Below are positions 185 to 57,516 of a DNA stretch of 64,000 nucleotides, in pieces. The stretch lies in contig NZ_JAFFJX010000024.1 of the NCBI RefSeq assembly GCF_016924755.1, positions 1 to 64,000 of the forward strand, written 5' to 3'. Made by a program: the position numbers and the translations under genes. The first letter of the stretch is position 1, and each line of letters starts with the position of its first letter. Under the pieces are notes generated by a model. It was given only the letters and a program-made list of their open reading frames with translations, did no database searches and had not been told where the DNA came from. This DNA comes from Longitalea arenae. GTDB lineage: Bacteria > Bacteroidota > Bacteroidia > Chitinophagales > Chitinophagaceae.

Positions 185-256
185 CTGCAACCTGAAACCT
201 GTAACCGGTACCGCTGTAACCGGCAACCGGTAACTGGCAACCGGCAAATTGCCAAC
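185..256. repeat. Heptad array, consensus YGGYAAC/CTGNAAC
   Basis: Units CTGCAAC, CTGAAAC, CTGTAAC, then after a short irregular stretch CGGCAAC, CGGTAAC, TGGCAAC and CGGCAAA follow each other with a 7-bp period. The AAC end of the unit is nearly constant and the third and fourth positions vary. It lies between the rRNA terminator and apbE. Confidence 0.75.
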
Positions 257-297
257 CTAGCTTATTAATCAGCCACTTTACGCATAACTGTTTTCCA

Positions 298-305
298 TAC
301 ATTTG
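298..305 (+). promoter_or_regulatory. Bacteroidota -7 box (TACATTTG) of apbE
   Basis: The box matches TANNTTTG. It ends only four bases before the apbE ATG, so transcription would start at or next to the start codon and the mRNA would be leaderless. The -33 partner is weak (TTTA at 277-280 rather than TTTG). Confidence 0.5.
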
Positions 306-309
306 TAAC

Positions 310-1317
310 ATGCGTTACTTATGCGTGCTGTTATTTACCTGTACCGCTTTCATTCATCAACCAGCCTGGCGAAAGATCCAGATCAATGGGAAAGCCCAGG
401 GTACTACCTACCTTATTACCTGGTACGCCAGAGACAGCACCGTCAGCCAGCACCAGATCGATAGCATCCTGCAAAGGATCGATAGCTCCCTTTCCATTTA
501 CAATCCTCAATCCCTCATTACACAATTCAATAATTCAGGCAAGGGCATTGTAATGGATAAACACCTCCAGATCGTATATAATAAATCTATAGACACTTAC
601 CGGCAAACCGGCGGGATATTCGATATAACCGTTCAGCCCCTTGTGCAGGCCTGGGGCTTCGGGCCAAAGAAAGTATCCGGCCTGCCCGATTCAACTGCTA
701 TCCGGGCCTTAAGAGCCTGTGTAAGCTCATTAAACCTCTATACAAAGGGAAACACCTTACAGAAGAAGAAGACCTGCACGCAGATAGATGTGAACGGTAT
801 AGCCCAGGGATACACCGTTGACGTCATCGCCCGATTTCTGGAAGCAAACGGCATTCAAAACTATCTGGTGGAACTGGGTGGGGAGATCCGGGTTAAGGGA
901 CATAAACAACCTGAGGGCGAGAAAATGAAGATCGGGATCGAAGCACCCGGCGAGAATGATTTCGAGTTGTCGATGATCCAGAAGATCATTGCTGTTGACA
1001 GCGGCGCCATTACCACATCCGGCAGCTACAGGAAATTTTATGAAAGCGAAGGCAAGAAGATCAGCCACCTCATAAATCCGCGTACCGGTTATCCGGCGCA
1101 AAATGAGCTGATCAGTGTGACTGTTTTCGCCCGCGATGCCATTACAGCCGATGCCTACGACAATGCGCTGATGATAATGGGTTTGAAGAAAGCGTTGCAA
1201 TTTGTTGAAAAACGCAATGATCTGGCCGCTCACTTCATATACCGTACGCCCGGGGGCAGCATCGCAGATACGGCTTCAAGCCGGTTCTATAAATTGCTCC
1301 AGAAAACCCAGCGCTGA
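310..1317 (+). CDS. apbE: FAD:protein FMN transferase (ApbE family)
   Basis: ApbE enzymes attach FMN covalently to a threonine of target flavoproteins, using FAD as donor, on the outer side of the cytoplasmic membrane. The 335-residue length is normal. Family motifs are clear: AQGYTVDV at about 165, VELGGEIRVKG at 187-197, HLINPRTGYP at 253-262 and the metal-binding stretch TADAYDNALM at 279-288. The N-terminus is a short hydrophobic leader (about 2-15) without a convincing lipobox. No flavinylation target (NqrB/C, RnfG-like) is seen in the window. The ATG at 310 is the only plausible start, since the next Met is near residue 82. A heptad array follows the stop. Confidence 0.9.
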   Translation: MRYLCVLLFTCTAFIHQPAWRKIQINGKAQGTTYLITWYARDSTVSQHQIDSILQRIDSSLSIYNPQSLITQFNNSGKGIVMDKHLQIVYNKSIDTYRQTGGIFDITVQPLVQAWGFGPKKVSGLPDSTAIRALRACVSSLNLYTKGNTLQKKKTCTQIDVNGIAQGYTVDVIARFLEANGIQNYLVELGGEIRVKGHKQPEGEKMKIGIEAPGENDFELSMIQKIIAVDSGAITTSGSYRKFYESEGKKISHLINPRTGYPAQNELISVTVFARDAITADAYDNALMIMGLKKALQFVEKRNDLAAHFIYRTPGGSIADTASSRFYKLLQKTQR

Positions 1318-1340
1318 AAAGGGGAAGGGGCTCCAGGGCG

Positions 1341-1368
1341 GAACGTTGAACGGGAAACGCAAAACGCA
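1341..1368. repeat. Short heptad array downstream of apbE
   Basis: Four consecutive units GAACGTT, GAACGGG, AAACGCA and AAACGCA begin 23 bp after the apbE stop codon. The AACG/ACG core is constant. Confidence 0.6.
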
Positions 1369-1443
1369 TAAAGCGTCTGCCGTAAGGTGGAAGTTGCGTG
1401 CTGGCTGGCGGCAGCCTGGAACTTGAGATCTTAGATTCGAATG

Positions 1444-1478
1444 CTTTTCGCCTTTGGCTTTCGCCTTTAAGCCTTGAG
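1444..1478. repeat. Short heptad array, CTTTNGC-like
   Basis: Five units (CTTTTCG, CCTTTGG, CTTTCGC, CTTTAAG, CCTTGAG) run with a 7-bp period upstream of the Gfo/Idh/MocA gene. Divergence is high, so the register is less certain than in the larger arrays. Confidence 0.45.
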
Positions 1479-1585
1479 CGCTAAATTAAATTGTTGCTAA
1501 GATGCAGCCGATAAAAAGAATTTTACTACTTATACAAGGGCAGAATTCCCATTTATCGTCAAAATAAAAACTTTTGCTTTGTTAT

Positions 1586-2788
1586 ATGAGCAGACGTCAT
1601 TTCATTAAACAGTCTGGATTACTGGCCGGTGGCCTGTTCTTCTCCAATCAATGGCTGCAGGCAATGGCCGGCCCCGCAGAAAAGATCAATATCGGCATAA
1701 TCGGTTGCGGCGACCGCGGCACAGGTATTATGAAAATGCTTAATGACCTTACCGACCGGTTTACTATAACCGCCGTATGCGATGTGCTCGATTTTCGCAT
1801 TGAAAACGCGAAGAAGGCCAGTCCAACTATAACACCCGCCGTTTACAAAGATTACCGCAAACTGCTCGATGACAGGTCGGTGCATGCTGTCGTCATCGCT
1901 ACCACGCTCAGTGAACATTATCAGATCGCCAAAGATGCATTGCTGGCTGGTAAACATATCTACCTCGAAAAAGCGATGACCTATTCCATTGACCAGGCCC
2001 TTGACCTGGTCAAAATATCAAAAGCGCATCCCAATCTGACAGTGCAAATAGGGCACCAATACCGCTCCACCCCGTTGTACTTTAAGGTGAAGGAGATGAT
2101 CGAAAAAGGGTATCTCGGAAAAGTTACGCAGCTCGATTGCCGTTGGGATCGCAACTGGAACTGGCGCCGGGCTGTACCTGCCGGTTATACCGATAAACAG
2201 GTGAACTGGCGAATGTATAAAGCTTATTCCGGTGGTTTGCCCGCCGAATTACTATCGCATCAGATGGACTTCATCAACTGGGCATTCAATACCCATCCCG
2301 ACGAAGTAATGGGAACGGGTGGCATCGACTTCTATAAAGACGGCCGCGAAACTTACGATAATGTACAGGTGATGTTGCGCTATGGCAAAGAGAATATGAT
2401 CGGAAATTTCGGTTCCACCTGCGGCAATGCACATGACGGTTATATTTTCAAAATAAAAGGCACCAAGGGCGCTGTGCATTTATTGATGCATGAAGGGGTT
2501 TATTATCCCGAGTCTACTACCAAAAAAGAACTGCAAACCGTTGATGGTGTTACAGGCGCTACCAAAATAGAATGGAATAAAGAAGGCGGTATCAATATTC
2601 TGAAAGAACCCACGAAAGATGGCACCTGGTATGCATTGCTGGAATTCTATACGGCGGTTACCGAAAAAAAGATGCCCACCTCCAATATTCTGACCGGCGC
2701 TACCACCGCTATTTGTGTAGCATTGGCAAACCAGGCTATCTTCAATCATACGATCGAAAAATGGAAACCGGCTTATAATCTATTGTAA
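1586..2788 (+). CDS. Tat-exported Gfo/Idh/MocA-family oxidoreductase
   Basis: A NAD(P)-dependent sugar or polyol dehydrogenase of the Gfo/Idh/MocA family, 400 residues from the ATG chosen here. That start puts a twin-arginine signal (SRRHFIK at 2-8, then a hydrophobic stretch) at the exact N-terminus; the open frame extends four codons further to a TTG, which would bury it. A Rossmann dinucleotide motif (GIIGCGDRG) is at 37-45 and the family lysine motif appears as LEKA at 127-130. Tat export means the enzyme folds with its nucleotide before export. The gene sits 19 bp before a tandem DUF1080 protein. In Bacteroides, such pairs oxidise the C3 of glucosides and then cleave the 3-keto product; that role is inferred here. 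Confidence 0.88.
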   Translation: MSRRHFIKQSGLLAGGLFFSNQWLQAMAGPAEKINIGIIGCGDRGTGIMKMLNDLTDRFTITAVCDVLDFRIENAKKASPTITPAVYKDYRKLLDDRSVHAVVIATTLSEHYQIAKDALLAGKHIYLEKAMTYSIDQALDLVKISKAHPNLTVQIGHQYRSTPLYFKVKEMIEKGYLGKVTQLDCRWDRNWNWRRAVPAGYTDKQVNWRMYKAYSGGLPAELLSHQMDFINWAFNTHPDEVMGTGGIDFYKDGRETYDNVQVMLRYGKENMIGNFGSTCGNAHDGYIFKIKGTKGAVHLLMHEGVYYPESTTKKELQTVDGVTGATKIEWNKEGGINILKEPTKDGTWYALLEFYTAVTEKKMPTSNILTGATTAICVALANQAIFNHTIEKWKPAYNLL

Positions 2789-2807
2789 TCATTATTTTAA
2801 CTGACAT

Positions 2808-4184
2808 ATGAAAAAACTCTCCTGCGTACTTTTGGCTCTTGTATCAGCGACTGTAGTTTCTGCCCAATCGGGCAATGGATGGACGAATCTCTTCGATGGA
2901 AAAACATTGAATGGCTGGAAAAAGATCTCCGGTGAAGCGGAGTACAAAGTTGAAGAAGGTGCTATCGTGGGTATCACTGTTCCGAATACACCCAACACCT
3001 TCCTGGTTACCGAAAAAGAATATGGCGATTTTGTACTGGAATTGGAAGTAAAGATTGAAGACACCACTTCCAACTCAGGTATTCAGTTCAGAAGCCATTA
3101 TGATCCTGAAATGAGCAATGGCCGCGGTGGCAAAGGCCGGGTATATGGTTACCAGTTTGAACTGGACCCCTCTTCGCGCCGCTGGACGGGTGGAATATAT
3201 GATGAAGCCCGCCGCGACTGGTTATATCCCCTGTCGTTAAACCCGGCCGGACAAAACGCTTTTAAAACCGGAGAATACAACAAGGTAAGGGTGGAGTGCA
3301 TTGGTAATAATATCAGGACCTGGGTAAATGACAAAGCTGCTGCGTACGTGATCGATACCGTTGACAAAAGCGGATTTATTGCCCTGCAGGTGCACGCTAT
3401 TAACAAAGGTGACCTGGCGGGCAAAAAGATCTATTGGCGCAATATCCGTATCAAAACCGGTGATCTGAAACCTGCGTCATTCGCAAAAGGCGTTTATGTC
3501 GCCAACTATATTCCCAATAACCTGTCGGCTTACGAAAAAAGCGATGGCTGGAAGCTGCTCTTCGACGGGAAGACCACCAATGGCTGGGTAGGGGCGTATA
3601 AGAAGACCTTCCCTGAAAAAGGCTGGGCAATAAAAGACGGCACATTGAATGTACAATCGGCAGCCGGCGGTGAATCAACCAACGGAGGAGATATCGTTAC
3701 CAAAGATCAGTTCAGCGCATTTGATCTGTCGTTCGATTTTAAATTAACACCCGGCGCCAATAGCGGGGTCAAATACTTCGTGACCTTGTCGGAAAATAAT
3801 GCGGGTTCTGCGATCGGGCTCGAATACCAGGTGCTGGACGACACCCTGCATCCCGATGCTAAACTGGGCCGGAATGGCAATCGCACTCTGGCCTCTTTGT
3901 ACGACCTCATCAAAGCCGACAAACAAAAGCGGTTCATTCGCCAACCGGGTCAATGGAATACAGGCCGGGTAGTTGTATATCCCAATAACCATGTGGTGCA
4001 TTACCTGAATGGCGTAAAAGTCGTAGAATACGACCGCGGCTCACCGGCATTTCGCGAACTGGTAGCCCAAAGCAAGTATAAAGTTTGGAAGAATTTTGGA
4101 GAGGCGCCTAAAGGCCATATCCTGATCCAGGATCATGGCAATGAGGTAAGTTTCAGAAGTATTAAAATAAAGGAATTAAAGTAG
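2808..4184 (+). CDS. Secreted protein with two DUF1080 (3-keto-disaccharide hydrolase) domains
   Basis: The 458-residue protein has a signal peptide (residues 1-19, ending VVSAQ) and two DUF1080 domains, at about 26-215 and 245-456. Each begins with the family's LFDGKT..GW signature and carries the NSGIQFR/NSGVKYF strand. DUF1080 proteins have a LamG-like beta-sandwich, and characterised members hydrolyse or eliminate 3-keto-glycosides. It is probably co-transcribed with the Tat-exported dehydrogenase just upstream, giving an oxidise-then-cleave module in the periplasm. Single-domain members are the common form, so the duplication is of note; the two halves are divergent and may differ in activity. 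An intrinsic terminator follows. Confidence 0.85.
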   Translation: MKKLSCVLLALVSATVVSAQSGNGWTNLFDGKTLNGWKKISGEAEYKVEEGAIVGITVPNTPNTFLVTEKEYGDFVLELEVKIEDTTSNSGIQFRSHYDPEMSNGRGGKGRVYGYQFELDPSSRRWTGGIYDEARRDWLYPLSLNPAGQNAFKTGEYNKVRVECIGNNIRTWVNDKAAAYVIDTVDKSGFIALQVHAINKGDLAGKKIYWRNIRIKTGDLKPASFAKGVYVANYIPNNLSAYEKSDGWKLLFDGKTTNGWVGAYKKTFPEKGWAIKDGTLNVQSAAGGESTNGGDIVTKDQFSAFDLSFDFKLTPGANSGVKYFVTLSENNAGSAIGLEYQVLDDTLHPDAKLGRNGNRTLASLYDLIKADKQKRFIRQPGQWNTGRVVVYPNNHVVHYLNGVKVVEYDRGSPAFRELVAQSKYKVWKNFGEAPKGHILIQDHGNEVSFRSIKIKELK

Positions 4185-4206
4185 CTATAAGCCTTTAAAC
4201 AGTAGA

Positions 4207-4240
4207 TACCCTGGTGAGCAATCGCCGGGGTATTTTTTTT
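4207..4240 (+). terminator. Intrinsic terminator after the DUF1080 gene
   Basis: Stem 4207-4214 pairs with 4225-4232 (one G-T pair) around a 10-base loop, followed by eight T residues. Confidence 0.85.
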
Positions 4241-4273
4241 TGGCGAAGCTGCATTATGTGTTCGCGTTTCCGT

Positions 4274-4305
4274 AAAAAAGAAAGGTCGCCTTTTTACAGG
4301 CGACC
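4274..4305 (-). terminator. Intrinsic terminator for leftward transcripts
   Basis: A perfect GGTCGCC/GGCGACC stem (4284-4290 with 4299-4305) is followed on the minus strand by a T-rich run at 4283-4274. It would end transcription coming from the protease pair at 4619-6003. Confidence 0.7.
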
Positions 4306-14884: not shown

Positions 14885-14983
14885 GCCAACTACAGACCTG
14901 GCGGGTCAGCCACCTGGGCGGCCTGCCAGGCTGACATTTTTGCCGATTTTGCGGGCCATGGGGGCAATGGCACTCTGTTTGGT

Positions 14984-15025
14984 ACGCAAAACGCGTAACG
15001 CGCAATGCGCAACGCCAAAAGCTCA
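14984..15025. repeat. Heptad array, ACGCRNA type
   Basis: Six consecutive units ACGCAAA, ACGCGTA, ACGCGCA, ATGCGCA, ACGCCAA and AAGCTCA lie about 100 bp after the stop of the T9SS cargo gene and before htpG. GC at positions 3-4 is constant and positions 5-6 vary. Confidence 0.7.
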
Positions 15026-15100
15026 AAAAACTGATTTTAAGCGTTCTGTGTAAGCGTTAAAGGTTCAGCAAAAAAATATTAACTGCCAAAAACGTTCAAT

Positions 15101-17058: not shown

Positions 17059-17142
17059 ATTTTACCTACTAAACCAATTGTCCTTTCAGAGGTATTTCCT
17101 TTCTTTTATATCGATTCGCCTGTCTTTCAGTAGTACGTTTTC

Positions 17143-17182
17143 ATTAGCACATTAGCAAATCAGCTGATCAGCTAATGATCAC
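17143..17182. repeat. Octad array ending in the stop codon of the efflux outer-membrane gene
   Basis: Five units ATTAGCAC, ATTAGCAA, ATCAGCTG, ATCAGCTA and ATGATCAC run with an 8-bp period. The AGC core is constant in four of five. The last unit contains the TGA stop (17181-17179 on the minus strand) of the outer-membrane factor gene. Confidence 0.65.
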
Positions 17183-18597
17183 TTCCATCCTCCGCCGAGG
17201 GAACGGTACAATTCTACCATAGCGTTCAACTGATCGCGTTCTACAGTTACCTGGTCTAGTTCTGCCTGTAACAAATTGCCCTGGGCGGTGATCACTTCCA
17301 GGTAATTGGCCAGTCCGCTTTTAAATAACAACTCTGCATTGCCGATAGCGCTGCGCAGCGTATTTACTTTATCGCTGGTAAGCTGATACTGGGTCTTCAG
17401 TTTTTCTAACCGTACCAGCGCATTGGATACTTCACCCATGGCAGTGTAGGCCGATTGGCGGAAGCTGATGGCAGCCTGATCCCGCTGCAATTTGGCAACT
17501 TCGAACTGTGTTTTTAAAGCACGGCGTTGGAAGATCGGTTGTGTGATACCGCCGGCACCAAGGGCAAACAGGGAAGCTGGCATTTTGAACCAATTGGTGA
17601 ACTCCCAGGCATTCAGACCGCCATTGGCTGAAATGGTCAATGTTGGATAGAAGCTGGCTTCTGCTACGCCTACCCGGGCATTGGCGGCCACGAGCGCCAT
17701 TTCGTTGCTGCGCACATCGGGACGGCGGCTTACCATCGCGGCGGGTATGCCGGTTGGTAACTGCTCCCATACTTTATAATTGCTCAGTTGGGCAGTACGG
17801 GCAACGGGACCTGGCTGGTCGCCACTGATGATACGGATGGTATTTTCCTGGATCGCTATCTGTTGTTCCAGCTGCGGGATCAGGATGGCCGCCGTTTGTT
17901 GTTGAGCGGTTGCCTGTTGTACAGCTAATTCGCTCACCTCACCGGCCGTTTTCTGCAGTTTTATGATGTTCACTATAGAATCGCCCAGGCTCAGGTTACG
18001 TTTGGCAATGGCCAGTTGCGCATCGAGCATCAGCAGGTTATAATAACTGCTGGCAATGCTCGCAACCACCGCGGTTTGCACAGCCCGGCTGGCTTCGTAA
18101 GATTGCTGGTAAATGGCGCCCGCTACTTCGCGTTGCCGGCGCAGCTTGCCCCAGATATCCAGTTCCCAGGTAAGGCCTGCTCCTAATGTATAGTCTTCAA
18201 TATGATCTTTACCCAGGCTGTTCTTCAGGAAATAACCATTGAAACTATTTTCCGAGGGGAAAGACGTAGACGCATTGATTGTTGCCTGAATGGTGGGGGC
18301 CCAGTTCACCTTTGCCTGTTTGGCGTAAGCCCTGGCTTCATCAACCCGCTTAACAGCCAGCTGTACATCAAAGCTGTTTTCCAATGCATGACCTATCAGT
18401 GATTGCAGGGTAGGATCTGAAAAGAACTTTCTCCATTCCATATCTGCCACACTGGAATCGGATGGTGCTGTAGTCGTATTGGCAAACTGTGCCGGTAAGG
18501 AAAGATCGGAGCGCTGGTAATCTTTTCCCATGCGGCACGCTGCCAGCAGCGCCACCAATGCCAGGGTAGGATAAATAGTGATATTACTTTTTCGCAT
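17179..18597 (-). CDS. RND efflux outer-membrane factor lipoprotein (NodT/OprM type)
   Basis: A TolC-fold outer-membrane channel of 472 residues from the start chosen here. That start gives a lipoprotein signal with Cys21 (LALVALLAAC); the open frame runs 20 codons further upstream but would mask it. The two OEP repeats show FFSDPTLQSLIGHALENSFDVQLAVKRVDEARA near the N-terminus and AAMVSRRPDVRSNEMALVAANARVGVAEASFYPTL midway, which are family signatures. It completes a tripartite pump with the RND and adaptor genes upstream. An AAGGAG site sits just before the ATG. The stop codon lies inside a short octad array. Confidence 0.93.
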   Translation of the reverse strand: MRKSNITIYPTLALVALLAACRMGKDYQRSDLSLPAQFANTTTAPSDSSVADMEWRKFFSDPTLQSLIGHALENSFDVQLAVKRVDEARAYAKQAKVNWAPTIQATINASTSFPSENSFNGYFLKNSLGKDHIEDYTLGAGLTWELDIWGKLRRQREVAGAIYQQSYEASRAVQTAVVASIASSYYNLLMLDAQLAIAKRNLSLGDSIVNIIKLQKTAGEVSELAVQQATAQQQTAAILIPQLEQQIAIQENTIRIISGDQPGPVARTAQLSNYKVWEQLPTGIPAAMVSRRPDVRSNEMALVAANARVGVAEASFYPTLTISANGGLNAWEFTNWFKMPASLFALGAGGITQPIFQRRALKTQFEVAKLQRDQAAISFRQSAYTAMGEVSNALVRLEKLKTQYQLTSDKVNTLRSAIGNAELLFKSGLANYLEVITAQGNLLQAELDQVTVERDQLNAMVELYRSLGGGWK

Positions 18598-33544: not shown

Positions 33545-34246
33545 ATGCAAAAAGTTGTTGCCAATGCTGATGCAGCTATTGCCGACGTTCCTGATAATGC
33601 TACCATTATGCTGGGTGGGTTTGGCTTATGCGGCATTCCTGAAAATTGTATTGCGGCCCTCGCACGCAAAGGCGTTAAAGACCTCACCTGTATCTCCAAT
33701 AATGCCGGCGTTGATAATTTTGGCCTGGGGCTGTTGTTGCAAACCCGCCAGATAAAAAAAATGATGGCCTCTTACGTGGGCGAAAATGCCGAGTTTGAAC
33801 GGCAGCTCTTAAGCGGTGAACTGGAAGTTGACCTTATTCCACAGGGCACCCTGGCTACCCGCATTCAAATGGCTGGTATGGGTATTCCCGCTTTTTATAC
33901 CCCGGCCGGGTACGGTACCGAGATAGCCAATGGAAAAGAAGTGCGTGCCTTCAATAATAAGATGTACCTGATGGAATATGCGCTTCATGCCGATTTCGCC
34001 ATGGTAAAGGCCTGGAAAGGCGACCGCTATGGCAACCTCGTATTCAGAAAAACGACCCGCAATTTTTCCACCTCTATTGCCAAAGCAGGCACAATTACCA
34101 TTGCTGAAGTTGAACACCTCGTTGAACCGGGTGAGCTTGACCCTGATCATATTCATGTGGCAGGCATTTATGTACATCGCATCTTTCAGGGAACCAATTA
34201 TGAAAAGCGCATCGAGAAGAGAACCGTACGTATGAATGGGAAATGA
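33545..34246 (+). CDS. scoA: Succinyl-CoA:3-ketoacid CoA-transferase subunit A
   Basis: About 233 residues from the ATG at 33545; the frame opens three codons earlier at a weaker start. It carries the CoA-binding signature [16 protein letters not shown] (21-36) and the family blocks [50 protein letters not shown]. With subunit B it moves CoA between succinate and acetoacetate for ketone-body use. The last codons (MNGK-stop) already lie in a heptad-like run that continues into the intergenic DNA. Confidence 0.94.
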
Positions 34247-34255: not shown

Positions 34256-34370
34256 ATGGCAAATGAGAGATGGGGTATCAATTATATAGAAAGTTGCGTA
34301 ATGAATTATAAGCAATGAATAATGGAAATGAGGGATTGAGAAAAAGGAAAGAGAAAGCCCAGAGCGCGAG

Positions 34371-34405
34371 TAACCACAAACCATAAACAACAAACAAGAA
34401 ACCGA
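34371..34405. repeat. Heptad array just upstream of scoB
   Basis: Five units TAACCAC, AAACCAT, AAACAAC, AAACAAG and AAACCGA end three bases before the scoB ATG, so the scoB ribosome-binding region lies at its edge. AAC is constant in all five. Confidence 0.6.
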
Positions 34406-34408
34406 AAT

Positions 34409-35071
34409 ATGGGTTTAGATAAATACGGCATCGCAAAACGGATTGCCCAGGAATTACAGGACGGCATGTACGTAAACCTGGGCATCGGTATTCCCACCCT
34501 GGTGGCTAATTACATCCCTGAAGGAATGACGATCATGCTGCAATCTGAAAATGGCATTCTGGGCATGGGACCATACCCGGTTGAATCAGCCATAGACCCT
34601 GATCTCATCAATGCAGGAAAAGAAACGGTGACCGTAATACCCGGCGGCGCCTTCTTCGACAGTGCTGAAAGCTTTGGCATGATAAGGGCCGGCAAGGTTG
34701 ACCTTACGGTACTGGGTGCTATGGAAGTATCGGAAAACGGTGACATTGCCAACTGGAAAATACCTGGTAAAATGGTGAAAGGAATGGGCGGCGCCATGGA
34801 CCTGGTGGCCAGCGCGAAGAATATTATTGTGGCTATGATGCATACCAACCCTAAAGGCGAATCCAAACTCCTGCCTGCCTGCACATTGCCATTGACAGGC
34901 GTTAAATGTGTAAAGCGGATCGTTTCAGACCTGGCGGTACTGGATGTATTGCCGGAAGGCGGTTTCAAACTCATTGAACGCGCCCCTGGTATAACGGTGG
35001 AAGAGATCCGTAATAAAACGCTTGGCAAACTGATGATAGAAGGGGAGATCCCGGAGATGTCAATTAACTGA
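34409..35071 (+). CDS. scoB: Succinyl-CoA:3-ketoacid CoA-transferase subunit B
   Basis: A 220-residue partner of scoA with the catalytic glutamate in MLQSENGILGMGP (Glu47), YVNLGIGIPTLVANY (21-35) and the GGAFFDSAESFGMIRAGKVDLTVLGAMEV block. It is separated from scoA by 162 bp of repeat-like DNA; CoA-transferase pairs usually sit much closer. It converges with the membrane protein gene that starts 36 bp beyond its stop. Confidence 0.95.
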   Translation: MGLDKYGIAKRIAQELQDGMYVNLGIGIPTLVANYIPEGMTIMLQSENGILGMGPYPVESAIDPDLINAGKETVTVIPGGAFFDSAESFGMIRAGKVDLTVLGAMEVSENGDIANWKIPGKMVKGMGGAMDLVASAKNIIVAMMHTNPKGESKLLPACTLPLTGVKCVKRIVSDLAVLDVLPEGGFKLIERAPGITVEEIRNKTLGKLMIEGEIPEMSIN

Positions 35072-45017: not shown

Positions 45018-45059
45018 CTTTAAAACAGGCAATTACTTTATAACCGCCGGAATTTTTAT

Positions 45060-45267
45060 TATTGCCTATTGCTTATTGTCTATTGCATTGCCTATTGTCC
45101 GTTGCCTATTGCCTGTTGTCTATTGTTTATTGCCTATTGCCCTTGTCTGTTGCCTATTGCCTATTGCCTATTGTCTGTTGCTTATTGCCTATTGTCTATT
45201 GCCTATTGCCGATTGCCTATTGTCTGTTGCTTATTGCCCATTGCCTATTTGTCTATTGCCTGTTGCC
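45060..45267. repeat. Large heptad array, consensus TATTGCC, 30 units
   Basis: Read on the plus strand, 30 units follow without gaps: 26 are exactly 7 bp, and the others are 5, 6 or 8 bp. TTG is present in all 30. Variation is confined mainly to position 2 (A or G), position 6 (C or T), position 7 (C, T or A) and position 1. The array lies between the convergent HDAC and DUF5916 genes and includes the DUF5916 stop codon at 45253-45255 and its last codons. Confidence 0.92.
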
Positions 45268-47763
45268 ATTCGTTTTTCTCACCAATTGCTGGTAGTTCAG
45301 GAAGTAAATAAAGCGGATCGTGAACTCATTTCCATGCGGGGTGCTGAAGAGCTGACCGGCGTTTTGCATATAGTTTTTATAGCCATTGGGATTTATGTAA
45401 AATTCATAGTCTTTACCCAGCCAGTTCTTCCATCCTATTATTAAGCGGCTGCCTAAGCGAAAATCCCAGGTATAGAAAACGTCGAGGTTAAAAGCATTGT
45501 AATTTACATTGTAGTCGGCCGGTTGTTGACCAGCCCTTGCGGTCCAGTACCCATCATCCTGCAAGTTGTACAGGTTGGTATTTTGTAAACGGTTCCAGTA
45601 ATGGCGTGCCCTTAAGGTAAGGTTCATGCGGGCGGCAAAATTGTAAACTCCGCTGAATACCGTGGTTACATCGGCAAATTTACGGCGGGCGAGCACCGGT
45701 GCGCTTGTAGCCGCATCGCGAACAAATGCGTAGCCAAACTGGCCATTATCATATTGCCGTCTATAGCTCATTTCGAGCATCAGCCGGTCGCTGAACCGGT
45801 ACCTGATAGCGCATTGAAGCGCATAAAACGGATCATTCGGCAGGGGGCCTTCAGCGCCGCCCAGCAGCCAGCTTACTATCAACGCTTTCCGGTTATCGGT
45901 GCTGCCATCAATGAACAGGCTATAATACGGAGAACGTTTTAATGGCTGCCGCGGCGTTTGGAACAGGCTCGGCGGCGTTTGCATTTCAAAATAGTCGTTA
46001 AACCACCAGGGTGCAATATCGGCCGTTACCATGATGTTCCAGAAGTTCTTCAATAACCAGTTGGCCGATGCTAAAAATGTGGTTTTCTGGTAAAGGAAGG
46101 GTTTATACAAATAGTCCTGCTTAACCGACACTTCATACCGCTGGTTCAGGAAGGAAGGGGTGGCCTGGTAAATATTATAGCTTATAGTACCAATATTGTT
46201 AAAGGCATTGGGCGATAATTGAAAGCCCAGATCGTTCGGATCGTATTGAGCCGATCTTAATTCATTCGTGAACGAGTACTGCAGCTTACCACTTACTTTT
46301 CCTGCCTGCAGGTAATTGGCAAAGCCATCATAGCGGCCGGCAGCATCATATACCACGCTGTAGCGCGGTTTTATTATCAGTCCATACCGGTTCTTTTTAT
46401 CATACAGGGCCAGGTCCAGGGCCGTTACATTGGCGTCGCGCCCATGGGCGTTACGCAATACGTTGGTATTGGTAAATGTAATGTAGGAGCGGTTCTTTAA
46501 TGCCTGATCAAGTACGATGATATTGTAATTGGCCAGGGGTTCCGTAGTCAAGATGGAATCTTTGCCGGTACCGCGGTTGCGCAGCCGCGCTCTTACATTT
46601 TCAGTTACTGCATTGAAGATGCCGATGCCCAGGTTACTGGCGGTTCGGCCCGAAAACTTGACGGCATTATACAAACGCGTCACCGAAGGGTTTTTCAATA
46701 ACTGGTAACCATCCAATTCGCCGGAACTTATTTTATACTGAACGGAGTCGAACAGGTCGGGCGTTTTGCCAATCCGGCGTGAATAAAAAATGCCTGCTTT
46801 GTTAAACAGTTCGGTGCCTTCCGTGAAGAAGGGCCGGTTCTCCCGGAACCTGATCTCAAAGGGACTAAGGTTATTCACCACATTGTCAGAGATCACCTGT
46901 CCAAAGTCGGGGATCAGCGTAGCATCAAGGGTAAAACTTTCGTTGATACCATACTTAACATCCATGCCGCCGCTCTTCAACGTTTCATATTGTTGCGTGG
47001 TATTTAAATACGGTGTTTGCCGATAACCGCCGCTTATATAAGGAGAAAAGCTCAGCCGCAATGGCGCGACCAGCTTATTCAACCCGGTGATATCGCCAAA
47101 CTGGTTGGCAAAACCGCTGACAGCGGGGTTGACCGGATTCCAGAACGAGGTTTCATTGAACCGGCGGCTGAAGCGCATGAACTGGATGCCCCAATCGGTT
47201 TCCGATTTTCGCGAGAAGCGGATCGAAAAAAGCGGAATGCGCATTTCAACGATCCAGCCATCCGGGCGGAAACCCACTTTACTCTCCCATACAGCATCCC
47301 AGCTTACATCTCCATAGATGCCTTCATGGGCAGTAGCATTGGCGCTTACCCGGGCATCGGTTTGTACATTACGGGCCGTAACCAGGAACTGAAAAGCATT
47401 CTGGCGGTCTTTATACGTATCCAGGAAAACGGAGAAATAATCTACGTTCGCCCGCTGTACATTGTCGCGGGTAGTGTATTGGCGCCTTATTTCAGCAGGA
47501 TCGTCGTACAGGTAAGCGCCGATATAGATGGCAGAATTATCGTACACTACCTGTACGGCCGTTTTTACGGCAGCAGGCTTGCCGTACACCGGCGTGTTAG
47601 TAATAAAATGGATGGCTGCAGGAGCTTGTTGCCAGACTGAATCATCCAATGACCCGTCGATACGGGGTGCCTGGGCAACTTTGATGGCCTGGGTGATCTT
47701 AGGCTGTGCATGCAGCCCTGCATAGGCCAGTAACGGTAATATAACAACCAGGCCTTTAAGCAT
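45253..47763 (-). CDS. DUF5916 outer-membrane beta-barrel protein with CBM9-like domain
   Basis: An 836-residue protein with a signal peptide (about 1-19), a CBM9-like carbohydrate-binding domain (about 28-215, PRIDGSLDDSVWQQA to GWIVEMRIPL) and a DUF5916 beta-barrel region to the C-terminus, full of aromatic strand patterns. Family members are outer-membrane proteins of unclear role, some linked to polysaccharide uptake. The reading frame ends inside the heptad array, so the last four residues (GNRQ) and the stop codon are repeat-encoded. Confidence 0.85.
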   Translation of the reverse strand: MLKGLVVILPLLAYAGLHAQPKITQAIKVAQAPRIDGSLDDSVWQQAPAAIHFITNTPVYGKPAAVKTAVQVVYDNSAIYIGAYLYDDPAEIRRQYTTRDNVQRANVDYFSVFLDTYKDRQNAFQFLVTARNVQTDARVSANATAHEGIYGDVSWDAVWESKVGFRPDGWIVEMRIPLFSIRFSRKSETDWGIQFMRFSRRFNETSFWNPVNPAVSGFANQFGDITGLNKLVAPLRLSFSPYISGGYRQTPYLNTTQQYETLKSGGMDVKYGINESFTLDATLIPDFGQVISDNVVNNLSPFEIRFRENRPFFTEGTELFNKAGIFYSRRIGKTPDLFDSVQYKISSGELDGYQLLKNPSVTRLYNAVKFSGRTASNLGIGIFNAVTENVRARLRNRGTGKDSILTTEPLANYNIIVLDQALKNRSYITFTNTNVLRNAHGRDANVTALDLALYDKKNRYGLIIKPRYSVVYDAAGRYDGFANYLQAGKVSGKLQYSFTNELRSAQYDPNDLGFQLSPNAFNNIGTISYNIYQATPSFLNQRYEVSVKQDYLYKPFLYQKTTFLASANWLLKNFWNIMVTADIAPWWFNDYFEMQTPPSLFQTPRQPLKRSPYYSLFIDGSTDNRKALIVSWLLGGAEGPLPNDPFYALQCAIRYRFSDRLMLEMSYRRQYDNGQFGYAFVRDAATSAPVLARRKFADVTTVFSGVYNFAARMNLTLRARHYWNRLQNTNLYNLQDDGYWTARAGQQPADYNVNYNAFNLDVFYTWDFRLGSRLIIGWKNWLGKDYEFYINPNGYKNYMQNAGQLFSTPHGNEFTIRFIYFLNYQQLVRKTNGNRQ

Positions 47764-49042: not shown

Positions 49043-50602
<1,560 letters not shown>

Positions 50603-50605
50603 TAC

Positions 50606-50640
50606 CTGGTTGCCAGTTACCGGTTTCCGGTTACCGGGCC
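50606..50640. repeat. Heptad array directly after the guaB stop
   Basis: Five units CTGGTTG, CCAGTTA, CCGGTTT, CCGGTTA and CCGGGCC begin three bases after the stop codon. Confidence 0.65.
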
Positions 50641-50686
50641 CGATTTAAAAACGAATCATTGACTTATGTCACCCGACCTCCGCGAA

Positions 50687-50714
50687 CTGGTAACCGGTGA
50701 CTGGTAACCGGTGA
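50687..50714. repeat. Heptad array upstream of the Lnb-family gene
   Basis: Two exact copies of the 14-bp pair CTGGTAA-CCGGTGA are adjacent. The same word family occurs at 185-256 and 50606-50640. It ends 17 bp before the ATG of the next gene. Confidence 0.65.
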
Positions 50715-50731
50715 CATTTAAATTCATCCTG

Positions 50732-51961: not shown

Positions 51962-51973
51962 TATCTTCAGGGA

Positions 51974-52783: not shown

Positions 52784-52809
52784 CGTAAACCGCGTTGTGT
52801 ACCAGCTGA

Positions 52810-55443
52810 ATGAGGAAAGCTCTGGCGATAGCTTTGTTATTAATTGGATCAATCCAGTCCCTGTTTGCTGAGCATATTAAGGGAGGGGAAATGTATTATG
52901 AATACCTGGGGCCGGGCGCCGCTGCCAACACTTCACAATACCGGGTCACCTTAAAATTGTACATAGACTGTAATGCCAACAGCGCCGGACAGCTCGACAC
53001 GCGGATCAATTTAACCGTTTTTGATAAGAACACGCTTTTGCAGGTGCCTTTCAGTCCGTTTGAGGCGCCAACTACGGGCGATCAGTTCCTTCGGTTCGAT
53101 CCTGCTTCCAATCCCTGTATCAGCAATGCGCCAACCGATGTATGTTACCGGGTACGTTCATTTTCTACGGTCATTGAATTACCGATCAACAGCAGCGGCT
53201 ATACCATCGCCTACCAGCGGTGCTGCCGTATTGATAATATCATTAACCTGACGCCGCGTAGTAATGCAGTGGGGGCAACGTATATGGCTGAGATCCCCGG
53301 CACCAATAGTTTAGCGGAAGCTTATAAAAATTCAAGCCCCCGCTTCCTGCCCAACGATGCTACCGCCATTTGCCGCGGTAGTAATTTTACCCTCAGTTTT
53401 GCAGCTACAGAACCCGATGGAACCGATTCTATAATCTATACTTTTTGCAGTGGTTTTATGGGCGCTTCTACCGACAGGCCTAATCCTTTTTCGGCAACGG
53501 CACCACCTTATAGCAGCCTGAATTATCAGTCGCCTTATGGTGGCAATCGGCCCTTGGGCGGCCAGGTGACCATTGATCCCAAAACAGGGCTTATCAGCGG
53601 TATAGCGCCTTTCTCCATCGGGCAATATGTAATTACGGTATGTGCGTATGAATACAGGCAGGGCGTATTGATCAATATCCACCGAAAAGATGTGCATGTA
53701 AAAGTGTCTGATTGCATTCCTTTGCAAGCGCTGCTGAAGCCGAATTATTCTTACTGCGACGACTTCCTGGTTACATTCAGAAATGAACAGGTAAATCCGG
53801 CCGGCTCGGTGTATACCTGGGATTTTGGTGATGGTACGCCTCCCGTTACCACTACCGATCTGGAAGGCCGGGTGCAGCATCAATATGCCGACACGGGTAC
53901 TTTTACTGTTAAATTGAAGGTGGTGCTGGCGGGTCAGTGTGAAGATGAAACCGTGACCCTGGCTAAAGTGTATCCGGGTTTTTATCCTGCCATCAAAGTG
54001 CAGGGAACCTGCGTACTGCTGCCCCTGCAGTTCCTCGATCAAACTACTTCGAGGTATGGCGCTCCTGCCAAATGGAGTTGGGATTTTGGCGATGAAACCA
54101 CGAATAACGATGTATCTACACAGCAGAACCCTTCCTGGAAATACAGTACTACCGGCTTAAAAACAGTGACGCTGACCGTGGAAAGTGATAAAGGTTGCGT
54201 GGGAACTGTGACCGCCACTGCCGATGTACGCGACAAACCACCGATCCACCTGGCGTTTAAAGATACGCTGATCTGCAGCATTGATACGCTGATGCTGAAT
54301 GCCAGCGGTAATGGTATTTTCTCCTGGTCGCCTGCATATAATATACTTGATGCCAATACGCCCACACCATCGGTATGGCCTAAAACCACCACTACCTATA
54401 CCGTTACCTTGAATGAGAATGGGTGTGTTAATACAGATAATGTGCGGGTGCGGGTGGTCGATTTCGTTACCCTGGATGCGGGGCCCGACAGTACCATTTG
54501 CTTAACGGATACGATTCAGTTGGCTCCGCAGACCGATGGTTTGAAGTTTGAATGGACGGCCAATCCGGCAGGCGGGTATATCAATGATGCTACTGCCAAA
54601 CAACCGCTCGTAAAACCGGATGGTACTACAACCTATCACGTAGTGGCGCACATTGGCAAATGCTGGGAAGACGATGAACTGACGATCCGTACGATACCGT
54701 ATCCCACTGCCAGGGCCGGCGCCGATACACTCATTTGTTACGATGATACCGCGAGTTTACATGGCAGTATGGTAGGGTACCGCTTCCTGTGGACGCCCGT
54801 AAGTACTTTAAGCGATCCCAATAATTTGAATACGCTGGCATGGCCAAGGCGAACAACGCCCTATGTGCTTACGGTGTACGATACCCTGGGATGTCCCAAA
54901 CCGGGCAGGGATACTGTTATTGTGAACGTGAAAGCGCAAATATTCGCTTTTGCCGGAAATGATACGTCTATTGTAGTGGGCCAGCCGCTGTTGCTGCATG
55001 GGCGCGGATCTGATTTTTACGAATGGATGCCGCCCTTACATTTAAACAGGAACGATATTGCCAACCCTGTTGCCATGCTGGATGATAATTTTTCCTATGA
55101 GTTAAGGGCTTACACGGCAGAAGGATGTTTTGACCTCGATACCATCAATATCAAAGTATTTAAAACGGCGCCTGATATTTTTGTGCCCAATGCATTCAGG
55201 CCAGGCGGCACCCGCAATAATGTACTAAGGCCCATACCCGTGGGGATCGCTACCCTGGATTATTTCTGTGTTTTCAATCGCTGGGGGCAAATGGTGTACA
55301 GAGGATATTCGCCCGAATCAGGATGGGATGGTACAATAGGAGGAAAGCCGCAAGCCACCGGAACCTATGTATGGATGGCCAAAGGCACAGATTATACCGG
55401 TAAGGTAGTGATGCGTAAGGGAACTGCTATCCTGATAAGATAA
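52810..55443 (+). CDS. PKD-domain surface protein, T9SS type B cargo
   Basis: An 877-residue secreted protein: signal peptide (1-20), a Cys-rich N-terminal region (about 22-300), PKD domains (YTWDFGDGTP near 335 and WSWDFGDETT near 420), further Ig-like repeats with paired Cys, and a C-terminal gliding-motility-associated (type B) sorting domain (about 785-877: DIFVPNAFRPGG, YFCVFNRWGQMVY, WDG, GTYVW). Such proteins are exported by the T9SS and stay on the surface or polymerise, and often act in adhesion. The stop codon lies at the first base of a heptad array. Confidence 0.88.
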   Translation: MRKALAIALLLIGSIQSLFAEHIKGGEMYYEYLGPGAAANTSQYRVTLKLYIDCNANSAGQLDTRINLTVFDKNTLLQVPFSPFEAPTTGDQFLRFDPASNPCISNAPTDVCYRVRSFSTVIELPINSSGYTIAYQRCCRIDNIINLTPRSNAVGATYMAEIPGTNSLAEAYKNSSPRFLPNDATAICRGSNFTLSFAATEPDGTDSIIYTFCSGFMGASTDRPNPFSATAPPYSSLNYQSPYGGNRPLGGQVTIDPKTGLISGIAPFSIGQYVITVCAYEYRQGVLINIHRKDVHVKVSDCIPLQALLKPNYSYCDDFLVTFRNEQVNPAGSVYTWDFGDGTPPVTTTDLEGRVQHQYADTGTFTVKLKVVLAGQCEDETVTLAKVYPGFYPAIKVQGTCVLLPLQFLDQTTSRYGAPAKWSWDFGDETTNNDVSTQQNPSWKYSTTGLKTVTLTVESDKGCVGTVTATADVRDKPPIHLAFKDTLICSIDTLMLNASGNGIFSWSPAYNILDANTPTPSVWPKTTTTYTVTLNENGCVNTDNVRVRVVDFVTLDAGPDSTICLTDTIQLAPQTDGLKFEWTANPAGGYINDATAKQPLVKPDGTTTYHVVAHIGKCWEDDELTIRTIPYPTARAGADTLICYDDTASLHGSMVGYRFLWTPVSTLSDPNNLNTLAWPRRTTPYVLTVYDTLGCPKPGRDTVIVNVKAQIFAFAGNDTSIVVGQPLLLHGRGSDFYEWMPPLHLNRNDIANPVAMLDDNFSYELRAYTAEGCFDLDTINIKVFKTAPDIFVPNAFRPGGTRNNVLRPIPVGIATLDYFCVFNRWGQMVYRGYSPESGWDGTIGGKPQATGTYVWMAKGTDYTGKVVMRKGTAILIR

Positions 55444-55540
55444 AGCAGTTCACGGTTCACAGTTCTCAGTTCACAGTTCACAGTTCGCAGTTGACAGTTC
55501 ACAGTCGCAGTTCAAAGTTCATAGTTGTCAGTGCACAGTT
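55444..55540. repeat. Heptad array, consensus CACAGTT, 14 units
   Basis: It starts at the base after the stop codon of the PKD protein. Eleven units are exactly 7 bp, two are 6 and one is 8. AGT is present in 13 of 14, and positions 1-3 carry nearly all the variation. Confidence 0.88.
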
Positions 55541-55574
55541 CTCATGACCCCGCACTTAAAAAGCTTACTTTAAC

Positions 55575-55582
55575 TACATTTG
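55575..55582 (+). promoter_or_regulatory. -7 box (TACATTTG) of the SDR gene
   Basis: Matches TANNTTTG 20 bases before the ATG at 55603. No TTTG was found at the -33 distance. Confidence 0.4.
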
Positions 55583-55602
55583 CAGCCTAATTAAAACGGT
55601 TC

Positions 55603-56355
55603 ATGAAAACAGTACTGATCACCGGCGCTACTTCAGGTTTTGGTAAGGCGATGGCAGAGAAATTTGCAGCTAACAATCACAACGTGATCATAACCGGCCG
55701 GCGGGCCGATAGGCTCGATGATCTTTCGAAACAGTTGAGGTCAGCGTATTCCGTAAAAGTGCATTCCCTGGTTTTTGATGTTCGCGACCGGAAAGCTGTT
55801 TTTGCCGCTATAGAAGAACTGCCTGATGCATTCAGGAACATTGATATTTTAATTAATAATGCCGGACTGGCCCTGGGCCGCGATTATTTTGAAGATGCGG
55901 AAACGGAAGACTGGGAGATCATGATCGACACCAACGTAAAAGGCGTAATGTATGTGACCAAGGCCGTTATACCTGGCATGATCGCCAGGAAACAAGGTCA
56001 TATCATAAATATGGGTTCTATTGCCGGTAAGGAAGTATATGAAAAAGGGAACGGCTATTGTGCATCCAAATATGCCCTGGATGCGCTTTCTCAATCGATG
56101 CGGGTCGACCTGCTGCGACACCAAATTAAAGTTACGGCTATTCACCCCGGCGCCGCAGAAACAGAATTCTCCATGGTAAGGTTTAAAGGCAATGCCGCCG
56201 CTGCTGAAAAAATATATGATGGCTATCAGCCGCTTTCTGCTGCAGATGTCGCGGATGTCGTTTATTACACGAGTACCCTGCCGCCACATGTGTGTATTAA
56301 CGACCTGGTTCTTACCTGCCTTGCACAGGCAAATTCCTTTTATTTACACAAGTAA
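55603..56355 (+). CDS. Short-chain dehydrogenase/reductase (YdfG-like)
   Basis: A 250-residue NADP-type SDR with the cofactor motif TGATSGFG (7-14), Arg-Arg at 33-34 favouring NADPH, NNAG (85-88) and the catalytic set Ser139, Tyr152 and Lys156 (YCASK). The pattern is closest to the YdfG group, which reduces serine, 3-hydroxy acids or malonic semialdehyde; the substrate is not certain. It is transcribed alone. Confidence 0.93.
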   Translation: MKTVLITGATSGFGKAMAEKFAANNHNVIITGRRADRLDDLSKQLRSAYSVKVHSLVFDVRDRKAVFAAIEELPDAFRNIDILINNAGLALGRDYFEDAETEDWEIMIDTNVKGVMYVTKAVIPGMIARKQGHIINMGSIAGKEVYEKGNGYCASKYALDALSQSMRVDLLRHQIKVTAIHPGAAETEFSMVRFKGNAAAAEKIYDGYQPLSAADVADVVYYTSTLPPHVCINDLVLTCLAQANSFYLHK

Positions 56356-56547
56356 TTGTACGCGTAAAAACTTTTCTTGTTTGGTGTTTTCCCTTTAATA
56401 AACGAAGAATGTAAGGGATATTTTAGCGGGCAATACATAATTCATTTAGAATATGTGAAATGTTGACCGTGGTGCTTGTATCGTACACTCTATTTGCGTA
56501 GCTTTATACCTGACTGCATCCAAAATCCTGCTTTAAAGCCAAATACT

Positions 56548-57045
56548 ATGTGCAAAACCTTGTGCGTATGCATCTTAGCATGCATGTTTCTAATATTTTC
56601 CCCTTCTTTGCGGGCCCAGAATGATGTGATCAAACTTCAAAGTTGTGAAGGCAATCCTTATCAGCAAACTGTTGACAGTATAAAGAAAGCAAGCGCTGAA
56701 CAGGGATATGTACTATTGCGCGAAGCATCTGTACAAATGGAAAGTGAGTATGAAATGCCCGTAGTTTTACCCATGCAGGGTGGTACTATATATCAATTCG
56801 TTTTTATTGGTGACCCTACTTCAAAATTATATGAAGTGCGGATGTTTGACTGGAACGAACGGCAGGTGGTTTATAAAAGACACCAGTGGGGTGATATAGA
56901 TGGGAATGTTATCAGTTATACCTACACGCCGCAGTTTAGTGAATACCACATGATAAAACCAGTGCAGGTAAATAAGAAGAAAAAGAAGCTCTGCGGTTAT
57001 GTTATGCTGATGAAAAAGCCCGAACCTACGGCGAAGAAGAATTAA
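56548..57045 (+). CDS. Small secreted protein of unknown function
   Basis: About 165 residues from the ATG at 56548, which gives a clean signal peptide (MCKTLCVCILACMFLIF.., cleavage after LRAQ); the open frame extends 24 codons upstream without coding character. The mature part is a small alpha/beta domain (SIKKASAEQGYVLLREASVQME, IYQFVFIGDPTSKLYEVRMFDW) ending in a Lys-rich tail. I do not recognise the family. A strong terminator follows. Confidence 0.7.
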   Translation: MCKTLCVCILACMFLIFSPSLRAQNDVIKLQSCEGNPYQQTVDSIKKASAEQGYVLLREASVQMESEYEMPVVLPMQGGTIYQFVFIGDPTSKLYEVRMFDWNERQVVYKRHQWGDIDGNVISYTYTPQFSEYHMIKPVQVNKKKKKLCGYVMLMKKPEPTAKKN

Positions 57046-57065
57046 TTAATTGCATTATAAGTTAG

Positions 57066-57092
57066 AGCCATACTTTATAGTATGGCTTTTTT
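57066..57092 (+). terminator. Intrinsic terminator after the small secreted protein
   Basis: A perfect 8-bp stem AGCCATAC/GTATGGCT (57066-57073 with 57080-57087) has a 6-base loop and a T-run. Confidence 0.88.
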
Positions 57093-57093
57093 A

Positions 57094-57188
57094 TAAAGGC
57101 AAAAAGGCACATAGGCATAAAGGCAACAAGGCAAAGGGCAATAATACAACGAGGCAAAAAGGCAACGAAGCAAAAAGGCAAAACGCAT
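57094..57188. repeat. Octad array, consensus NNAAGGCA, 12 units
   Basis: Twelve units, eleven of exactly 8 bp and one of 7, begin two bases after a terminator T-run. GGCA ends nine of the twelve; the first four positions vary (TAAA, AAAA, CATA, ACAA, ACGA). Confidence 0.8.
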
Positions 57189-57328
57189 AGAGCCAACCGC
57201 CAATCCAACCCATGATTGAGCACTCGCCATCAGGTCATAACTCATGCCCGCGGAGCTCCTTCCGTTCAATACCGAGCTTGACCGTTCACGATAGATCAAT
57301 TCCACTTATACTTCACACTCGGCATGTA

Positions 57329-57516
57329 CGATTCGCCATTCACCAGTGACCATTCACCATTCACCAGTGACCATTCACCATTGACCATTCAAATAAGATC
57401 GCTTCCCACTCGCCACTCCCATTCACCATTGACCATTGGCCATTCACGATTCACCATTGACCATTGACCATTCACGATTGACCATTGACCATTCACCATT
57501 GACCATTCACGATTCC
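57329..57516. repeat. Heptad array, consensus CCATTSA, about 24 units
   Basis: Nine units (57329-57391) and, after a 21-bp irregular stretch, fifteen more (57413-57516). ATT is present in 21 of 24. Position 6 alternates between C and G and position 2 between C and G, with few other changes. It lies between two converging terminators, upstream of the sprA terminator. Confidence 0.88.

Follow-up and report, generated by a model that had tools for sequence, protein, structure and literature searches.

Short-period tandem arrays lie in the gaps between genes (spacers) of a 64,000-nucleotide stretch of Longitalea arenae (Chitinophagaceae; contig NZ_JAFFJX010000024.1, positions 1 to 64,000), which is the window analysed here and part of a 7.28-Mb genome in 40 contigs. 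Most of these arrays consist of adjacent 7-bp units. About half of the arrays have a detectable inverted partner, the G-rich form usually occupies the 5' arm, and orthologous spacers keep arrays while their units change. Positions 43441-63750 form a gene block conserved in the genus, with genes for a metallophosphoesterase, an HDAC-like protein, a DUF5916 protein, an S24-like regulator, guaB, an Lnb-like protein, a hydrolase, a CHU_C protein, an SDR, a hypothetical protein and sprA. Genes were called with our own hexamer-based finder, and gene start positions are therefore approximate. Rfam has no match in the window at gathering score. The arrays, found by a lag scan or by Tandem Repeats Finder (TRF), are as follows.

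178-257, + strand: period-7 array of AACCTGN / AACCGGY units, upstream of an ApbE-family gene (lag scan, TRF)
1334-1384, + strand: period-7 array of AACGCNN units, left side of its spacer (lag scan)
1443-1480, - strand: period-7 array of GCCTTTN units, right side of the same spacer, in the opposite orientation (lag scan)
14978-15031, + strand: period-7 array of AACGCGC units, upstream of an Hsp90 gene (lag scan, TRF)
17135-17184, no strand: period-8 array of CATTAGCA/CATCAGCT units in a convergent spacer (lag scan; unit also in L. luteola)
34363-34412, + strand: period-7 array of AACCACA units between two CoA-transferase genes (lag scan; unit also in L. luteola)
45049-45268, - strand: period-7 array of about 30 TATTGCC units in the convergent HDAC-like / DUF5916 spacer (lag scan, TRF)
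50600-50644, + strand: 5' arm of the guaB-Lnb inverted pair, GGTTACC type, beginning at the guaB stop codon (lag scan)
50678-50721, + strand: 3' arm of the same pair, AACYGGT type, ending near the Lnb start (lag scan)
55437-55545, + strand: period-7 array of CAGTTCA units, beginning at the stop of the CHU_C/PKD gene (lag scan, TRF)
57088-57189, + strand: period-8 array of AAAGGCAA units, left side of the spacer before sprA (TRF, lag scan)
57323-57533, - strand: period-7 array of CCATTSA units, right side of the pre-sprA spacer (lag scan, TRF)

The lag scan compares 28-nucleotide segments at a match cut-off of at least 64%. At lag 7 it returns 11 segments, namely the ten period-7 entries above and 57168-57203, whereas 60 first-order resamples of the window give a mean of 0.32 and a maximum of 2. 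Other lags return fewer (lag 6, 6; lag 12, 4; lags 8 and 13, 3 each; lag 9, 2; lags 5, 10 and 11, none). When the cut-off is raised to 70%, lag 7 retains 8 segments, lag 8 retains 2, and lags 5, 6 and 9-13 retain none. TRF independently reports long arrays, including 45060-45267 (30 copies), 55446-55541 and 57331-57515. The 7-bp arrays described in an initial annotation of this DNA are thus real, and ten of the eleven positions that it listed fall inside lag-7 segments; position 34235 fails at lag 7. Both 57095-57183, within the entry 57088-57189, and 17135-17184 are arrays of period 8, the latter absent from that list.

Period spectrum and unit families

The lag-7 excess is also seen against shuffled intergenic DNA, a comparison that the initial annotation had proposed. 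In 464 kb of the L. arenae genome, of which 62 kb are intergenic by a simple mask of open reading frames, intergenic segments number 27 at lag 7, 18 at lag 8, 6 at lag 11, 4 at lag 9 and zero at lags 5, 6, 10, 12 and 13, while 10 shuffles average no more than 0.3 segments at any lag from 5 to 13. The excess is found again in 407 kb of the same genome outside the window, in the comparison genome G005 (a single contig of 9,033,684 bases), and patchily in other Chitinophagaceae. Since G005 and a 3.15-Mb contig of genome G030 show the same pattern, an assembly artefact is unlikely.

Counts of arrays over whole stretches, genes included, depend on a match threshold of 64-68%. In 471 kb of L. arenae they comprise 35 arrays of period 7, 32 of period 8, 19 called at 14, 6 of period 11, 5 of period 9, 4 at 15, and 2 each at 6 and 12; one shuffle yields none. 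G005 has 28 of period 7, 22 of period 8, 16 at 14 and 5 of period 11 in 400 kb. Period 7 therefore leads, as the initial annotation had it, but it is not the only shared unit length: periods 8 and 11 exceed expectation as well, and 5, 10 and 13 are nearly absent. In the class of heptanucleotide simple sequence repeats, which includes the short tandemly repeated repetitive (STRR) elements, 7-nucleotide units lie mainly outside genes. This holds here, but period 7 is accompanied by periods 8, 11 and 9.

Arrays of period 7 are present in G018, G030, G013, G016, G025, G029, G033 and G035, and in the named records L038 (Litoribacter populi) and L039, whereas the 20-60 kb sampled from each of G010, G011, G020, G023, G024, G027 and G031 hold none of period 7 or 8. 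Across the phylum, 20 stretches from 20 genomes contain 6 arrays of period 7 and 7 of period 12. Samples from outside the genus (1135 kb, genes included) contain 40 of period 7, 19 at 14, 14 of period 12, 9 of period 9, 8 each of periods 8 and 6, 6 at 15, 3 each of periods 11 and 5, and 1 each of periods 10 and 4, so that a strong period 8 is mainly a feature of this genus and of G018.

The units were initially thought to be unrelated between loci, so that the period would be shared and the sequence would not. A length-specific excess in spacers supports the first part. The second is contradicted by the units themselves, which form families common to loci and species and are not private to a locus. 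The doubled unit TATTGCC matches the L. arenae genome at 31 places, several of them within one array. Among 155 period-7 arrays from five groups there are 82 distinct units, compared with 139 expected from random intergenic heptamers, and among 77 period-8 arrays 42 compared with 75.6; these counts are restricted to arrays with no more than 60% of their length inside called genes. Loci of L. arenae and L. luteola overlap by orthology in these counts, as they do in the tests of unit sharing, AAC content, inverted partners, neighbouring arrays, array fraction, stop distance, wobble, hairpin form, family form and 5'-arm G content described below, and the tests of AAC content, inverted partners, array fraction, stop distance and family form cover all samples but that of G030. 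Of 52 L. arenae period-7 units, 36 differ from a G005 unit by no more than one change (letter-shuffled units, mean 22 and maximum 29), and 20 of 30 period-8 units do so (6 when shuffled).

No single unit predominates, in that several families are found among the 155 period-7 arrays. An AAY anchor is present but modest, with AAC occurring in 55% of 142 period-7 units versus 28%. Most of the frequent units of periods 7 and 8 do not carry the GGG run of G-quadruplex heptamers on either strand (e.g., AACCGGT, AATAGGC, AACTGTG and AATGTGAT); AATGGGC contains GGG.

Inverted partners and polarity at gene edges

Inverted pairing, polarity and unit switching at orthologous spacers are features that the initial annotation did not contain. 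The clearest inverted pair of the window is 50600-50644 / 50678-50721, which begins at the guaB stop codon and ends close to the Lnb start. An inverted match elsewhere in the same spacer (score of at least 22) is found for 54% of 208 spacer arrays, compared with 11% when other spacers are searched, and arrays scored as partnerless may have weak partners. Direct matches in the own spacer are found for 29% and partly reflect split arrays. Where neighbouring arrays have equal periods and units no more than two changes apart, 29 pairs are inverted, 11 are direct (some being one array split) and 2 are ties. Inverted scores of at least 36 occur in 18 of 286 L. arenae spacers, 11 of 69 in L. luteola, 23 of 204 in G005, 7 of 54 in other Niastella and 6 of 20 in G030, not all of these spacers being periodic; after shuffling, only one spacer, in G005, reaches this score. 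At L016:8635-8803, an octad inverted pair fills the spacer between two genes that by eye resemble atpF and atpH, and its 3' arm ends immediately before an ATG.

Arrays make up 17.5% of the DNA of convergent spacers, 8.5% of tandem and 4.8% of divergent ones. They tend to adjoin stop codons, with 30% of 268 stop-side distances being 10 nucleotides or less versus 10% expected, if arrays overlapping a gene end are counted as 0.

When hairpins with related units at different loci are compared, the form in the 5' arm is alike in 32 of 33 comparisons for period 7 and in 26 of 29 for period 8. This comparison uses 47 of 125 hairpins, the others being named Niastella loci, one orthologue, and hairpins that are not clearly inverted or periodic. 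The polarity is not a strand effect because a hairpin X...X' equals its own reverse complement. The 5' arm is the G-rich one in 40 hairpins versus 6 (4 ties) among 50 of L. arenae, L. luteola and G005, and in 20 versus 4 (1 tie) among 25 of other genera.

Polarity is also seen relative to genes. The gene-edge test takes L. arenae and G005 apart and leaves aside central arrays and those with equal G and C (19 of 86, 16 of 69 and 14 of 63 in L. arenae, G005 and other genera, respectively). Measured inward from the nearer gene edge, arrays with a partner are G-rich in ratios of 28:6, 23:11 and 29:4 in these three groups, and arrays without a detected partner in ratios of 28:5, 14:5 and 14:2. By type of edge, the corresponding ratios are 17:1, 13:1 and 9:0 at starts in tandem spacers, 18:2, 8:0 and 7:2 at convergent stops, 16:7, 13:12 and 21:3 at tandem-spacer stops, and 5:1, 3:3 and 6:1 at divergent starts. 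Family forms agree: arrays without a called partner carry the expected form by 30:9 in the left half of spacers and by 50:3 in the right half. The X forms in this test are taken from hairpins, whereas the G-over-C measure needs no such list. A general base skew of spacers does not account for the polarity, as array-free spacers have an inward G-C skew of only -0.03 to +0.09. Nor does the stop- or start-codon content of the units, which follows no rule by eye, and convergent spacers, which have no starts, comply with the polarity. Rho loading on the C-rich arm was a further candidate explanation.

Long inverted arms adjoining stop codons are reminiscent of transcribed hairpins, either terminators or mRNA stabilisers, that are kept by selection on RNA pairing, and in one convergent spacer of G005 (L090) array arms continue a terminator-like stem. 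However, arm differences in 55 periodic hairpins are wobble-type (G.U) in 66 cases and mismatch-type in 76, compared with 83 and 23 in 129 terminator-like hairpins used as a positive control. The lack of a G.U excess speaks against selection for RNA pairing and sets the arrays apart from intrinsic terminators, which pair at the RNA level and tolerate G.U. The GTTNC family alone has 24 wobble-type and 11 mismatch-type differences (p=0.02; other period-7 families, 22:41), a possible exception that we read as unit-specific variation and not as an RNA signal. In addition, G content in terminator-like hairpins is biased in the reverse direction (44:75 of 133), and at L021:19123-19265 a terminator-like hairpin is located inside the loop. 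We therefore regard RNA-level hairpins as a very improbable explanation of the arrays as a whole.

Unit exchange at orthologous spacers

The comparison collection includes, as genus members by name, Niastella species and L. luteola, the nearest named relative (84% by Lnb-like protein). Gene order from the metallophosphoesterase gene to sprA is kept in the compared Niastella and Longitalea loci (L025 ends inside the CHU_C gene). By eye, the guaB-Lnb spacer contains a paired array in 10 of 10 genus members examined, which is of the GGTTACC type in 4 and the GGTTACA type in 6, with both arms of the same type together. Sister pairs with support of 1.0 differ in type (L. arenae / L. luteola, and N. 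populi / OAS944), as do the sisters N. yeongjuensis / N. soli (support 0.53). A parsimony reading of the tree implies at least 4 changes, although some deeper nodes are weak.

The HDAC/DUF5916 spacer holds TATTGCC units in L. arenae, a long GGCAGAA run in N. soli, a period-11 array in OAS944, and TTTGTGG/TTTATGG units in N. populi and N. caeni. The spacer orthologous to 14978-15031, upstream of Hsp90, has ACGCTAA and AGCGTTC arrays in L. luteola. Orthologous spacers therefore keep arrays but exchange units, sometimes in both arms at once. Other spacers stay empty: the divergent S24-guaB spacer and the SDR-hypothetical spacer have arrays in none of the eight species compared for each. Among 39 orthologous spacers of L. 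arenae and L. luteola, arrays are found in both species in 9, in neither in 25 and in one only in 5 (2 + 3). The conserved fraction of non-array bases has a median of 0.56 in spacers with arrays (n=16) versus 0.89 in the others (n=17; p=5e-5). This lower conservation, together with the unit differences at occupied sites, indicates that arrays occupy gaps under weak constraint, where they turn over.

Families of units shared among loci, with a fixed polarity, could also arise if hairpins spread as mobile units and then diverged. Repetitive extragenic palindromic (REP) elements and REPINs, which are associated with RAYT transposases, are likewise extragenic inverted pairs. Pseudoflavitalea shows no hairpin between guaB and Lnb; its array-free spacer there spans 54 nucleotides, counted from the guaB stop up to the first Lnb residue that aligns. 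Moreover, a period-11 intergenic region of 351 bases (G000:C11:447380-447730, also L005:7380-7730; L110-L113) recurs three more times in the genome, once at almost full length (74%) and twice over ~240-250 bases (69-70%). Period-11 arrays had seemed private to their loci, since 19 arrays had 19 units, but these partial copies overturn that view, and some period-11 arrays therefore belong to a longer dispersed element.

Apart from this element, copies do not share arms and loop in searches with one hairpin genome-wide and with 265 L. arenae spacers. The AAACCAC hairpin has 49 matches among the 40 of 82 candidates that were scored; all of them are arm-sized except two, namely the query and a 70% match that covers most of the hairpin. 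Only 8 of 388 matches between the 265 spacers extend over at least 25 non-array bases on both sides. PF01797 (Y1 transposase) has only two matches in the genome, which may or may not be RAYTs; one of them is weak, and the arrays beside the better match belong to common families. In contrast to REPINs, then, loops are mostly unshared and arms are periodic in their units. Transposase, loop-sharing and copy searches do not support a REPIN-like origin beyond the period-11 element, and mobility seems an unlikely source of the arrays in general.

Replication errors as a candidate origin

The explanation that we tentatively prefer, with a probability of about 0.42, is that these short-period arrays, about half with a detectable inverted partner, are made and remade by replication errors in spacers with little functional sequence. 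Polymerase slippage, favouring a register of 7-8 nucleotides (more rarely 11), would expand a seed in a spacer and so account for tandem growth. A stalled nascent strand could then fold back and copy itself, as in quasipalindrome-type template switching, thereby creating or correcting a second, inverted arm, so that paired arms would change together. If stalling were stronger on the G-rich template of the second arm, the G-rich form would become the 5' arm on either strand, which could cause the polarity. Selection would clear arrays from genes, promoters and divergent spacers. What we observe directly are the periods, inverted pairs, polarity, unit turnover at occupied sites, weak spacer conservation and absence of a wobble bias; every enzymatic step, and the reason for the 7-8 register, is what we infer from them. 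Fast change of units between species while the same gaps tend to be retained looks like a replication-error process. A length-dependent generating process, which the initial annotation had suggested, remains the most economical idea, but it is not new, since Mrazek and colleagues are reported to have proposed polymerase slippage.

Several observations weigh against an origin in replication errors. Unit families common to loci and species are not predicted by pure local slippage. In partnerless arrays the polarity is about as strong as in paired arrays, and fold-back copying is therefore not seen to be needed for it. These two features are the least well explained. In G005 the polarity is weak (p ~0.06 in each class, paired and partnerless) and absent at the stop edges of tandem spacers. 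The wobble excess of the GTTNC family points in the same direction, and slippage is proposed from comparisons between species with one genome per species.

Partnerless polarity and shared families therefore keep alive a different model, in which the arrays are selected elements that bind a protein or mark DNA or RNA boundaries at gene edges, with the G-rich strand inward and the exact unit of little matter. Such a role would fit the gene-edge polarity of arrays without a called partner, the proximity to stop codons, and the continued occupancy of sites whose units change. However, the spacers that carry arrays are the poorly conserved ones, the many unit families would require many readers, the wobble test shows no constraint on RNA pairing, and occupancy is patchy, with no array of period 7 or 8 in the sampled 20 kb of G010, G011 and G024, among others. 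We consider a selected function unlikely, though worth retaining beside the replication model.

Parts of this pattern resemble known systems. STRR elements of filamentous cyanobacteria are also heptanucleotide tandem repeats, but one unit predominates per type, whereas many are found here. As described in the relevant sections of Rehm 2015 (PMC4692102), intergenic GGGAATC / GGGGA(C/T)T heptamers in Xanthomonas and Nostoc, for which that account gives no function, form 70 and 75 convergently oriented pairs in two Xanthomonas genomes and few in Nostoc; they are rare between divergent genes, and two Xanthomonas species mostly share occupied gaps. Their orientation relative to open reading frames is the same as here. 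However, each organism has one G-tract unit type, discussed in terms of quadruplexes, whereas the present arrays comprise many families that do not need G tracts, have two main periods, and switch units at orthologous sites. The authors also place their heptamers in regions of increased stability, while array spacers here are less conserved (PMC4692102).

TAACTGA repeats, according to the parts of MacGregor 2015 concerned with them (PMC4679880), occur in Beggiatoaceae, Cyanobacteria and some Bacteroidetes, are intergenic and mostly beside start codons, and are proposed as sites for a post-transcriptional regulator. In Flexibacter litoralis, 12 of 14 sets are forward before starts and one is reversed after a stop, an orientation that agrees with the GTT/AAC arrays described here. 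That system has one unit, with related heptamers rarely or never repeated, in contrast to the many units and inverted pairs of the present arrays (PMC4679880).

Both PMC4679880 and PMC4692102 credit Mrazek and colleagues with the finding that heptamers are, in many genomes, the most abundant or an over-represented class among long simple repeats, and with the proposal that polymerase slippage produces them. The heptamer excess and slippage hypothesis are shared with that work of 2007, whereas the passages on it mention no pairing, polarity or unit switching, which are features of the arrays here. According to Mrazek and Huang, inverted repeats may stem from template switching. The heptamer excess and this orientation (Xanthomonas, Nostoc), as well as inverted pairs (Xanthomonas), are thus already published. 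What is new is one polarity rule over many units and two periods, combined with unit switching; neither many unit families with one polarity nor unit switching was found in the open-access literature searched by full text.

The excess of heptamers in bacterial genomes was noted in 2007, and according to the same passages (PMC4692102, PMC4679880) its mechanism is still not demonstrated. One genome with many families of the same period, pairing and polarity, and with sister species that differ at one and the same site, separates effects of length and strand from those of sequence, and therefore makes models of slippage, fold-back and selection testable in soil bacteria. The pattern also bears on why bacteria favour 7-letter repeats. 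A bolder claim, which we regard as rather doubtful, is that one sequence-tolerant rule (G-rich inward from gene edges, with steps of 7, 8 and 11 and hardly ever 5, 10 or 13) applies to arrays of many unrelated units across several genera of Chitinophagaceae and agrees with how repeats are reported to be oriented in Xanthomonas, Nostoc and Flexibacter. If so, a conserved machine or a fold-back replication pathway would measure the step and write paired arrays into gene gaps.

Some individual loci hint at recent events. In N. soli, long GGCAGAA and CTGCCGT runs (L024:4236-4470 and L024:14706-15017) lie ~10 kb apart in two spacers and are perfect by eye, which suggests recent expansion. The CHU_C-SDR spacer of N. 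populi (L026:14715-16334) is more than 1.3 kb longer than in other species; by eye, an octad array of the GAGTTGTT type seems to be interrupted there by an insertion sequence whose ends are inverted. In the window, the 3' end of the DUF5916 gene falls within the TATTGCC array (45253-45268), and the array therefore appears to have extended into the coding end.

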